From Bdellovibrio sp. KM01 (lineage in GTDB: Bacteria > Bdellovibrionota > Bdellovibrionia > Bdellovibrionales > Bdellovibrionaceae), in contig NZ_CP058348.1 of NCBI RefSeq assembly GCF_013752535.1, positions 3,534,001 to 3,598,000 on the forward strand: a stretch of 64,000 bases of DNA. The letters are read 5' to 3'. The position numbers and the translations under genes are program-made. Positions 2,804 through 7,050 of this stretch are shown in pieces (the first letter of the stretch is position 1; every line of letters begins with the position of its first letter). The notes under the pieces are model-generated. The model did no database searches. It worked only from the letters and a program-made list of their open reading frames with translations, and was not told the DNA's origin.

Positions 2804-4702
2804 TTGAAAACGACATCATTGAAGTCAGTTCTGTTCGTACTGGCTCTGGCTCTATCTGTTCCCGTTCAGTCCCATGCAGGTTTGGATATTTTCGAACCTT
2901 CTAAAGTTCTAGAAAAAATCCGCAAACAAATCGCGAAGCAAGATATCGGTGCGACAATTGGCCTCAGTGCTGACATCATCGATGGCTTGAGTGTTTCTTT
3001 AAAATACAAAGCGAAGTCTGAACCTTCATACTTGGATGGTTATTACACTCGTTTAGATAAATACATCATGACGACAGATGTGAATGTCGGTGATCTATTG
3101 AATGGCGATATCACACCATTTGGTTTCGATGTTGAACAGGGCACTGAAGTTTACTTTGCCCGTCAGTTCAAATCTCAAGGCGATTCCATCAAAGCTCTTC
3201 CCTACACTTTGGATCGCATTCCATTTACAGCTCAAAAAGCTGTTCAAAAATTGAAAGTCGGCGATTTCGTGGCCCTTCAAGGCAAGCTTTCCATCGTTTT
3301 CTCGGTGGGAGCCGATACGGATTTGAATCCGACAGTTTCTTTGGGTGGCTCCACTCATATTTATATGTCAGGTGATTTCATGATTCACTTGTACCGCATG
3401 GAAAACGATAAAATCCGTGTGAAACTGATTACACTAAGAAGCCGCGGCACGGGCGCTAGTGCCAGCATCGACTACTTGGGCAGACTTAAAGTTGTGGGTC
3501 TTCGTGTCGTAGACAGAAAGCTTGAGCGTTGGATTGACTTGAAACCAGCGTCTTTGAACTTCGGTAAATCTTTGAATGATGTTTTCATGTTGGACTATGT
3601 GTTTGATTTGAAAAATCCAGCCGCAGCGACGGCCTTTAATAACTTCATGAGCAAAAAAGTGAAGTTTAAAAATTTGAAAGTCATCGACCCAACGGCTTCC
3701 CGACCTGAATTGCAAAATGAACTTTTGACGGACATGTCTGAAGTTGAAGACATGTATATGGAAGACCATACGTTGCCTGCGGATCAACGCCGTATCGACC
3801 GCGTGTTTAAAGGTTCAAACACTTCCGTCGACATCATGTCTCGCTATAAGCTTTCCATGAGCATCCTGCGCCTGGAAGCCAACACGATGTACTCGCAAAA
3901 CAAATTGCAAAACTACGATGCGAACAACATCGAGAAGCAATACATCCTGGACACTTACCAAAAATCAGCTCAGTCCAAAATCTTCTATGGTATTTGGGGG
4001 AACAAGATCACTGAAGGCGATCACATTATCTTTAATTCCAATCCACAATGGACTCCGGGCTCCTTGGTTACGACTTCCCATTTTTATGAAGCACGTATGA
4101 GAAACGTTTCCAAAAAAGATTTCGGAAAAATGCAAAACCGTGCGCAAGACGTTTTGCCAGAATGGATCTATCGACAAATCGACTGGAAACACTGGGACTT
4201 CTCTAACGGCGACATCGTGAATGGTTACTTCCGTCACCAAGTCTGCATCAGCCCCGAAGCCTACGAAGCGATTCCAAAATACTCTGCCAGCCAGATCGAA
4301 AAAATGTTCTCTGCGTACCTTGACTCCCAAGATCAAGACTTGGATCAGTTAAGACACAAAAAGATCGAAAAGATCGCCGTGAATTTGGCGTACTTGCTTC
4401 AACCGGTCATGTCAGACAAAGCTCGCTATGAAGCATTCAGAAATCTGCAAAAAATTGCGATGTGGCGTGATCACGGCGCTTATTTCGTACTGACTCTTTT
4501 GCCGGAAAATCGTTTCGAAGATCTTGTGACTTATGAAATGACTTTCTCAGGTCGTAAATCCGATCAGATCAATTTCCGCTTTGGTAACTTTGAAAAACAA
4601 CAGCTTTACCAAACGCTGTTATATATCCAAAACTTGATCAACGATCGTTCCTTCGATCTGCGTCTGGTGACGGATTCCACAGGCGGAAAAACAAAACCAT
4701 AG
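2804..4702 (+). CDS. Exported protein of unknown function, 632 residues
   Basis: Not recognised. The protein starts with a clear signal peptide: Lys2, a hydrophobic core VLFVLALALSVPV, and a probable cleavage after SHA near residue 26, so it is exported to the periplasm or outer membrane. The body is soluble-looking, mixed in charge and without further membrane segments. The start is TTG, chosen because AGGAG sits 8 bases upstream at 2791-2795, the signal peptide begins there, and no ATG occurs near. It stands alone 88 bases after hemH and is closed by a strong terminator, so it is probably a single-gene unit. An envelope role is inferred only from the signal peptide. Confidence 0.85.
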   Translation: MKTTSLKSVLFVLALALSVPVQSHAGLDIFEPSKVLEKIRKQIAKQDIGATIGLSADIIDGLSVSLKYKAKSEPSYLDGYYTRLDKYIMTTDVNVGDLLNGDITPFGFDVEQGTEVYFARQFKSQGDSIKALPYTLDRIPFTAQKAVQKLKVGDFVALQGKLSIVFSVGADTDLNPTVSLGGSTHIYMSGDFMIHLYRMENDKIRVKLITLRSRGTGASASIDYLGRLKVVGLRVVDRKLERWIDLKPASLNFGKSLNDVFMLDYVFDLKNPAAATAFNNFMSKKVKFKNLKVIDPTASRPELQNELLTDMSEVEDMYMEDHTLPADQRRIDRVFKGSNTSVDIMSRYKLSMSILRLEANTMYSQNKLQNYDANNIEKQYILDTYQKSAQSKIFYGIWGNKITEGDHIIFNSNPQWTPGSLVTTSHFYEARMRNVSKKDFGKMQNRAQDVLPEWIYRQIDWKHWDFSNGDIVNGYFRHQVCISPEAYEAIPKYSASQIEKMFSAYLDSQDQDLDQLRHKKIEKIAVNLAYLLQPVMSDKARYEAFRNLQKIAMWRDHGAYFVLTLLPENRFEDLVTYEMTFSGRKSDQINFRFGNFEKQQLYQTLLYIQNLINDRSFDLRLVTDSTGGKTKP

Positions 4703-4737: not shown

Positions 4738-5062
4738 TTTCTCACTCTCGAGTAAGAGTGTTCCCTGCAGATTTTAATTGAGTAATTTGAGACGGCGCGA
4801 CATCCCCCTGTTTTCCAAAGAAAAAACACCCGAGCGAAAGATAAAAGCTTGGCTGCTTAACCTCCCCATATGTTTAACGTTTTCCCTCTGAAATCCCCCT
4901 GTGAACGGCCTTTTGGAAATTAATACAAACCCGTGCTTCGTCGAGAAAGGAAATAATCTCGGCGACTCCATTTAGAGCTTTAGATTAAAGGATTTTAAGT
5001 ATATTAACCGAACCCTAGTTGCTAAGTAGACCAGCTCAATTACATCTATAACTAAGGGGAAA
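4738..5062. other. Gene-free stretch upstream of the PBP4-type gene
   Basis: About 325 bases between the terminator at 4737 and the ATG at 5063. I see no coding potential: short reading frames on the minus strand have no recognisable product. A weak hairpin, CACTCT/AGAGTG, lies near 4742-4760 without a T run. The AT-rich part at 4980-5040 is the likely promoter region for the downstream gene, but I cannot pick a convincing -35/-10 pair. Confidence 0.5.
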
Positions 5063-6367
5063 ATGGTGTCATTCTTGAGATTCCAACTGGCATTGACTGC
5101 TTTGATTGTCGGCTTCACGACATCGTCTGCTTATGCAAAAGTCTATTTGAACTCCCAGTGCACGATGAAAGCCAACTCTGGTAAAATCGAAGGCAACGGT
5201 TCTAAAGACGAAAAATTCCCTCTCGCTTCCATTTCTAAACTTGTCACTTCGTTGTGGGCCATTGAAACTCTGGGCGCCAACTACCGCTTTGAAACTAAAA
5301 TCCACGTTACTAAAGTTGGCCCTAAAGCCTACAACATGCATTTCGAAGGCAGCCGTGATCCTTTGATGGGGCGTAATGTCGGCTATTTCATCCTGGCTCA
5401 ACTGACCATGAAACAGCTTGGTATAGAAAGAGTTGAAAACTTAACCTTCGACGAAAACTTCCAAATGGAATGGAACGTGGAGGAGCCGGTCGCTGTTGCC
5501 GGTGACACAAAATTGTTCACCGATATCGCAGAACAAGCTGCTCATGTTCAGCACGAATTGGAAAATGGCTTCATCACACCGATTGCCGATAACTCCTACA
5601 CGTACCTGCGCAAGATTTCTAAATCGGTGGGTGTGACTCTGCCGCAAGAAAAACCAAGGATCAATTTTGGCAGCGTATCGTTTTTGGCAAAAGCCGACTT
5701 TAAAAAAGCCAACGACACTCAAACGTTCGTTTACAAATCCGCTCCCCTTTATAAGATCGTTAAGAACATGAATAACAAGTCCAATAACTATGTGGCTGAC
5801 CACTTGTATTGGAATTTAGGCGGCACTCCGGCGTTCAATGCTTACTTGGCAGAGAACCTGAAAATGGACAACCGCGATCTTGAGTTCAACTTGGGATCCG
5901 GTAACAACGCGGACTATATCTCTAAAAAGAAATACGACTATAACGAAGGCACTTGTACCGCGATGATCAAAGTTTTGATCCGCTTGAACGAGGTTTTGGC
6001 GACACAAAAACTGGTTTTGACGGACGTAATGGCGGTTGCTGGTAAGGACAGCGAATCCACATTGGTGCGCTATGATGGCGTTATGGGCGATGCTATGACG
6101 GCTAAAACCGGAACGGTTGATAAAGCGAAAACTTTGGCGGGCACGATCTCTACAGGAAACGGGACGATCTATTTCGTGATCCTGATGCACAAGGATTCTT
6201 CGGGTGAAAACGGGTCTGCAGCGAATGCGATCAAAAACCGCATCCGTGCCTTATTCACAATCAATAACGGCTCTAAGAAAATAAACTATTCAGAAACTAC
6301 GCCTCTTCCCTTCGATAGCCAATCGGCTCTGGTTCTGGGATATGGGCCTCATTTAGGAATGTTCTAA
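5063..6367 (+). CDS. dacB: D-alanyl-D-alanine carboxypeptidase/endopeptidase, PBP4 type (peptidase S13)
   Basis: Periplasmic penicillin-binding protein that trims or cuts peptide cross-links in peptidoglycan. The 434-residue protein has a signal peptide cleaved near SSAYA (about residue 25). It carries the three active-site motifs of the family: S-I-S-K (SxxK) in PLASISKLV, S-N-N (SxN) in NKSNNYVADH, and K-T-G in TAKTGTVDKA. It is somewhat shorter than E. coli DacB (477), so the insert between SxxK and SxN is reduced. Start ATG has AAGGGGA just upstream. The stop TAA shares one base with the next ATG, so it is coupled to the ankyrin gene. In a predator such enzymes may act on self or prey wall; the sequence does not tell which. 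Confidence 0.88.
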   Translation: MVSFLRFQLALTALIVGFTTSSAYAKVYLNSQCTMKANSGKIEGNGSKDEKFPLASISKLVTSLWAIETLGANYRFETKIHVTKVGPKAYNMHFEGSRDPLMGRNVGYFILAQLTMKQLGIERVENLTFDENFQMEWNVEEPVAVAGDTKLFTDIAEQAAHVQHELENGFITPIADNSYTYLRKISKSVGVTLPQEKPRINFGSVSFLAKADFKKANDTQTFVYKSAPLYKIVKNMNNKSNNYVADHLYWNLGGTPAFNAYLAENLKMDNRDLEFNLGSGNNADYISKKKYDYNEGTCTAMIKVLIRLNEVLATQKLVLTDVMAVAGKDSESTLVRYDGVMGDAMTAKTGTVDKAKTLAGTISTGNGTIYFVILMHKDSSGENGSAANAIKNRIRALFTINNGSKKINYSETTPLPFDSQSALVLGYGPHLGMF

Positions 6368-7050
6368 TGATCAGTGTGACGCTTTGGATTTTTTATGTTT
6401 TGGTTGCGATGTTCACCGTTTTTGGCCCTGTGCGTGCCAGCGGTTACACCGTCGAGAACTTAAACAAAGCGATCGAACTCCAAAAGAACAAAGAAGTTCA
6501 GCAACAAATCCAGTCGAAAGCTTTCGATCCCGGCGTGGGTGATTCGGACGGAATCACTCCCTTGATGGCAGCTGCCATGAACGGGAACGTGAAAGCTTTG
6601 AACTTGTTAATGCAAAAAAACGCCAACCTTGAACAAAAAAATAAATTCGGTGATACAGCTTTGGCCCTAGCCGTTTCTAACGACCAAGATGCCGCTGCAA
6701 AAACATTGATCGCTGCTGGTGCTAAGGTCGACGTTGCGGTTCTTTCCGAGAACAAAGACACTCTGTTGATCACGGCCGCGAAAAGTAGTGAGAAAACGAC
6801 TCGTCTGATCCTGCAAAAAAATAAAAAGGTCATCAACCAGACAAATGCTTTAGGTAATACGGCCCTGATGGAATCCATCATGGCGGGTTATCCTAAGATC
6901 GCAAAACTTCTGGTGGACAATGGCGCCGACGTGACCGTTAAAAACAACGATGGCAAAACCGCATTGGATTTCTCCAAAGAGATGAAAAACAAAAGCCTAT
7001 CAGATCTTCTGACGAAAAAGGCGAAAGCCATCGACTCTGCTAAAAATTAA
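6367..7050 (+). CDS. Exported ankyrin-repeat protein
   Basis: The 227-residue protein has an N-terminal hydrophobic segment (VTLWIFYVLVAMFTVFGPV) followed by VRASG, consistent with export to the periplasm. From about residue 55 it contains four ankyrin repeats, each with a recognisable G-T/I-T/A-P/A-L-M/A core: DSDGITPLMAAAMNG, NKFGDTALALAVSN, ENKDTLLITAAKSS and NALGNTALMESIMAG, with the last continuing into NNDGKTALDFSKE. Ankyrin repeats mediate protein contacts, and a periplasmic one next to a D,D-peptidase suggests a partner or inhibitor of that enzyme; this is inference from a one-base overlap between the two genes. Confidence 0.85.
   Translation: MISVTLWIFYVLVAMFTVFGPVRASGYTVENLNKAIELQKNKEVQQQIQSKAFDPGVGDSDGITPLMAAAMNGNVKALNLLMQKNANLEQKNKFGDTALALAVSNDQDAAAKTLIAAGAKVDVAVLSENKDTLLITAAKSSEKTTRLILQKNKKVINQTNALGNTALMESIMAGYPKIAKLLVDNGADVTVKNNDGKTALDFSKEMKNKSLSDLLTKKAKAIDSAKN

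Follow-up and report, generated by a model that had tools for sequence, protein, structure and literature searches.

A Bd3459/Bd3460-type predatory endopeptidase and ankyrin gene pair in Bdellovibrio sp. KM01 with a single predicted target, and two matched pair types at the locus within the genus

Predatory endopeptidases of the Bd3459 type are expressed 15 to 30 min into prey invasion and have endopeptidase activity. The function of these enzymes has been described previously (PMC3276566). In Bdellovibrio bacteriovorus HD100, the ankyrin-repeat protein Bd3460 binds Bd3459 as well as the homologous enzyme Bd0816, covers the cleft, and blocks cross-link cleavage; when Bd3460 is lost, the predator rounds up on prey contact, and the enzymes are still secreted into the prey (PMC4686830). 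In the HD100 genome (3,782,950 bp; PMC7137782), bd3459 and bd3460 are flanked by hemG-hemH on one side and by genes for a DEAD helicase, a hydrolase, and pcnB on the other. A more distant parallel is offered by the type VI peptidoglycan hydrolases and their periplasmic immunity proteins, in which a wall-cutting effector is likewise followed by its own inhibitor. In contrast to those pairs, the pair described here contains no secretion-system part or trafficking domain, and its target would be the prey.

The window analyzed here is a 64,000-nucleotide stretch of the Bdellovibrio sp. KM01 genome (positions 3,534,001 to 3,598,000 of NZ_CP058348.1), which is a single contig of 3,961,288 bp. An S13/PBP4-type enzyme gene in this window is followed by a gene for an ankyrin-repeat protein (Table 1). 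An earlier note on this DNA had described the two as overlapping by one base, and both open reading frames are indeed present, with base 6367 common to the stop codon TAA (6365-6367) and the start codon ATG (6367-6369) as TAATG; in HD100 the two genes are instead separated by a short gap. The AGGA within the enzyme gene lies 8 nt ahead of the ankyrin ATG. A promoter and terminator scan gave no signal above that of shuffled sequences. Our comparison took in 141 genomes, 24 of them from the genus Bdellovibrio, and the ankyrin gene was found directly 3' of the enzyme gene in 23 of the 23 genus genomes that have an enzyme at the locus, with a gap of -3 to +16 bp. Measured against its nearest relative (G017), the window has dN/dS values of 0.04 for the enzyme and 0.02 for the ankyrin protein, and both genes are under purifying selection. 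Because the pairing holds throughout these genomes and dN/dS is low, the association of the two genes is not due to chance.

Table 1. Features of the endopeptidase and ankyrin gene pair in the window
Feature	Positions	Strand	Basis
AAGGGG, ribosome-binding-like purine run 5' of enzyme gene, with short spacing (3 nt)	5054..5059	+	Sequence, inference
S13/PBP4-type D,D-endopeptidase gene, 434 aa, ATG start	5063..6367	+	Pfam, Bd3459 match, HD100 synteny, tree
Enzyme signal sequence MVSFLRFQLALTALIVGFTTSSAYA; the mature end, KVYLNS, is that of Bd3459	5063..5137	+	Inspection, alignment
SISK, catalytic serine S56 (S70 of Bd3459)	5228..5239	+	Alignment
SNN motif, S240 (S251 of Bd3459)	5780..5788	+	Alignment
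N281 (N292 of Bd3459), start of predation-type hairpin	5903..5905	+	Alignment
KTG motif, K348 (K357 of Bd3459)	6104..6112	+	Alignment
AGGA, ribosome-binding-like site for ankyrin gene, within enzyme gene	6355..6358	+	Sequence
Ankyrin-repeat immunity protein gene, 227 aa, ATG start	6367..7050	+	Pfam Ank_2, Bd3460 co-linear match, tree
Hydrophobic N terminus MISVTLWIFYVLVAMFTVFGPVRA of ankyrin protein, probable signal sequence, start without basic residue	6367..6438	+	Inspection, inference

In Pfam the enzyme falls in Peptidase_S13 (1.3e-20, above cut-off). Among solved structures it matches only Bd3459 (3e-120, residues 19-423; several entries) and Bd0816 (2e-108), both matches spanning the entire mature protein. 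The catalytic SxxK (S56/K59), SxN (S240/N242), and KTG (K348TG) motifs are intact, and T333 aligns with T342 of Bd3459; the roles of the Bd3459 active-site residues and of N292 are taken from PMC3276566. The protein is co-linear with Bd3459 and has no domain III insert, and its loop before helix 9 is 3 residues shorter than that of the HD100 counterpart. By inspection the signal sequence is clear, with cleavage between AYA and KVYLNS.

The ankyrin protein matches Pfam Ank_2 (6.1e-25) and aligns with Bd3460 (PDB 5CEA; 2e-38) in a single stretch, residues 23-218 against 24-219; the two matches ranked above Bd3460 are long eukaryotic ankyrins with scores summed over many repeats. Among the AR4/AR5 cleft residues named for Bd3460, D132, A139, and A167 are kept, and M136, Q140, A170, and V171 are changed, as is Y174. 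Inspection of the N terminus points to a possible cleavage site between VRA and S, with no K or R before it. Signal sequences without K or R at the start occur in the window and in G014, G017, and G023, unlike in most members of the family, and because of this missing basic residue, export of the ankyrin protein is less certain than that of Bd3460. A single-sequence fold of the protein reached a pLDDT of 44 and was unusable.

The gene order hemG-hemH-x-ENZ-ANK-DEAD-ABH-pcnB is common to the window and HD100. Comparison with Bd3459/Bd3460 (PDB 5CEC, 5CEA, and 3V39), which the earlier note had proposed, bears out the likeness in architecture that it had pointed out: the window pair resembles the HD100 pair in locus, gene order, protein families, catalytic residues, and coupling, with an S13 enzyme preceding an ankyrin protein in both. 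The amino acid identity is 49% for the enzyme and about 40-42% for the ankyrin protein, in which several cleft residues differ. Because the matches to the crystallized proteins are full length and the locus is the same as in HD100, the window pair is, as judged from sequence and gene order, orthologous rather than paralogous to Bd3459/Bd3460. Between hemH and the enzyme gene, the window contains a gene for a 632-aa protein with a signal-like N terminus (2804-4702, plus strand), for which no Pfam, NCBIfam, or solved-structure match was found. This gene is present at the locus only in the clade of the window (G014, G017, and G023) and in G019, and HD100 has in its place two minus-strand genes that are, by eye, probably LrgA/LrgB-like.

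We put at about 90% the probability that, in a Bdellovibrio species having only one predatory endopeptidase, the window pair is the orthologue of Bd3459/Bd3460 and acts as the published pair does, since orthology makes the published mechanism the most likely one. By this mechanism, the enzyme would be secreted at prey entry and would cut the 3-4 cross-links of the prey peptidoglycan, upon which the prey would round up. The ankyrin protein, presumably co-translated, would stay in the predator periplasm, cover the active-site cleft of the enzyme and so inhibit it, and the predator's own wall would be spared. The tight coupling of the genes and the co-evolution of their products described below would suit any obligate partner, including one that serves the enzyme as a chaperone or in its secretion, and the published affinity of Bd3460 is modest, at 26.8 μM (PMC4686830). 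Such a role in place of inhibition is nevertheless quite improbable, because Bd3460 has been shown to block activity in vitro and predators that have lost it round up themselves while secretion of the enzymes continues (PMC4686830), and because homologous enzymes exist without an adjoining ankyrin gene, as does Bd0816 itself.

Outside the genus, an ankyrin partner was found 3' of the enzyme gene in G002, G003, G028, G032, G034, G036, G037, G038 (where it is short), G039, G040, and G058. A homologous enzyme stands alone in G031, G042, G059-G061, G065, and G066, as well as in the genomes inspected from the B. exovorus genus (G045-G057), in the sense that no ankyrin gene lies beside it, with a diverged partner elsewhere in these genomes being possible. 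In several of these genomes the enzyme gene still adjoins the DEAD helicase gene. From the lone enzymes of other genera it follows that the enzyme may be older at the locus than the ankyrin gene, or that the ankyrin gene may have been lost several times. The genome G044, which we take to be that of B. exovorus JSS, has neither the enzyme nor the ankyrin gene at this locus. Absence of both genes from the B. exovorus locus agrees with earlier reports (PMC4686830 and PMC5941755). Two further arrangements were observed. In G035 (L163:11210-13207, minus strand), the DEAD-helicase locus holds a Bd3460-like ankyrin gene with 43% identity to that of the window, and the gene immediately before it encodes a 434-aa protein without a Pfam match, which may be another effector; the Bd3459-type enzyme of this genome is ~150 kb away. 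In G034 (L092:4200-7443, minus strand), a single short ankyrin gene (175 aa) comes after two enzyme genes in tandem.

The genome that contains the window encodes two S13 proteins, namely, the window enzyme and a full-length housekeeping protein of the Bd3244 kind (G000:C1:612571-613869; 276 bits). Unlike in HD100, a Bd0816-type gene was not found in this genome, and the inhibitor would therefore have one target. The two targets, Bd3459 and Bd0816, that the earlier note had brought in from HD100 thus do not apply here, which lowers only the dual-target claim, as a dual target is not a condition of orthology. Bd0816 (PDB 5CER) is bound by Bd3460 and has 46% identity to the window enzyme, but it is encoded at another locus with no ankyrin gene beside it. 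Such second copies were found in only 4 of the 24 genus genomes (G004, which is HD100, G007, G010, and G011), and in a careful tree they join the Bd3459 sequences of the same four genomes (82/92). A topology that keeps all type A enzymes of the Bd3459 locus together with Bd0816 outside was rejected (p-AU 0.007). In the genomes searched, Bd0816 is restricted to the HD100 clade, where it has the look of a duplicate that arose late. This tree and distribution make a derived origin within the HD100 lineage the best reading of how Bd3460 came to have two targets, with moderate support. One other Bdellovibrio genome (G013, 95% complete) has only the housekeeping S13 protein, with no pair and no match to the orthologous DEAD helicase; either the assembly has a gap there or the region has truly been lost.

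The same data bear on whether the window holds a paralogue, either Bd0816-like or part of some other pair, in place of the Bd3459/Bd3460 locus. The identity to Bd3459 is barely above that to Bd0816, but the synteny is that of bd3459/bd3460, the enzyme is the sole one of its type in the genome, and the trees reject the topology given above, so that a paralogue is very unlikely. Where the earlier note had offered the self-protection system or a paralogue of it, synteny and matches uphold the former and not the latter. The enzyme belongs to the S13 family and matches TIGR00666 (PBP4), although below cut-off, but there is very little chance that it is a housekeeping PBP4 for the predator's own wall beside an unrelated ankyrin protein, given that the genome already has a separate full-length S13 protein, that the S13 match of the window enzyme is broken into two pieces, and that this enzyme groups with Bd3459/Bd0816 and shows the predation-type hairpin along with N281. 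Both of these readings were rejected on the basis of genome content, synteny, and trees.

Within the genus, the Bd3459/Bd3460 locus is occupied by pairs of two types, A, which includes the window pair, and B. A type B enzyme is found at the same locus in eight genomes (G006, G008, G009, G016 [NC01], G019, G024, G025, and G026), and in every carrier its own ankyrin gene lies directly downstream, so that the type B pair is like that of the window in place, order, and composition (an S13 enzyme and an ankyrin protein with a signal sequence). Identity to the window proteins is about 27-31% for the enzyme and 29-38% for the ankyrin protein. In the type B enzymes the catalytic motifs are intact, part of the 144-210 region is missing, and position 292 is occupied by Y in place of the N found in all type A enzymes compared. 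The type B loop before KTG is longer and different, and it corresponds to the 346-351 region of Bd3459 that Bd3460 contacts (PMC4686830). Type A ankyrin proteins, including that of the window, keep the length of the longer AR3:AR4 loop singled out in the crystal structure paper on Bd3460 (PMC4686830), and the type B loop has one residue fewer. In G012, one pair of each type is found in tandem at the locus (L073:4258-8400, minus strand).

The type B sequences group together as a single clade in both trees, that of the enzyme (100/100) and that of the ankyrin protein (100/99.9). In contrast, a clade of the type B genomes is rejected by rpoB (p-AU 1e-42) and by the flanking genes (p-AU 5e-69), and the rpoB and flank trees need 4 to 5 changes of pair type. 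Across the 23 pairs compared, enzyme and ankyrin distances are correlated (r = 0.888; partial 0.882 given the flanks and 0.879 given rpoB; 0 of 2000 permutations), also within type A (partial 0.932). The clearest case is the draft genome G019, whose pair and flanks share a contig: it has 98.4% rpoB and 86% flank identity to the window but only 27% enzyme and 30% ankyrin identity, whereas G014, with 89% identity in the flanks, has 76% and 73%, respectively; NC01 is a complete genome. That type B pairs are fast-diverged orthologues following the species tree is ruled out by these G019 and G014 identities, and divergence along the species tree is further ruled out by the rpoB and flank tests set against the fully supported pair clades.

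Because the enzyme and ankyrin trees share a split that rpoB and the flanks reject, the pairs behave like matched effector-immunity cassettes, and they resemble polymorphic effector-immunity pairs, in which matched sets replace one another at a fixed locus. The trees suggest that enzyme and inhibitor evolve and are inherited as a matched set and that such sets have been swapped between lineages. Both whole-cassette transfer and an old tandem with differing losses fit this pattern, and either keeps the partners matched. The matched A/B pattern would be expected of an enzyme and its specific inhibitor, and it is not proof that cross-protection between A and B fails.

A wall-cutting enzyme with a self-protection inhibitor is already known, and the window pair confirms the published system in another species; as a find it is ordinary, since the earlier note had named the right known system. 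What it adds is the single-target state and the matched-cassette pattern. Ortholog tables can hide such pairs: NC01 has been listed without Bd0816, yet its locus holds another pair type, and neither Bd3459 nor ankyrin came up in a search of the main text of the paper with that listing. Cross-protection between type A and type B is a direct question for the bench. A tentative further reading, which we would not yet favor, sees the locus as a polymorphic effector-immunity cassette whose mutually incompatible types, at least the two called A and B here, have been exchanged whole between Bdellovibrio lineages, each inhibitor being type specific. If so, a predator that met the enzyme of the other type in shared prey, or that carried the wrong half of a pair, would be damaged.
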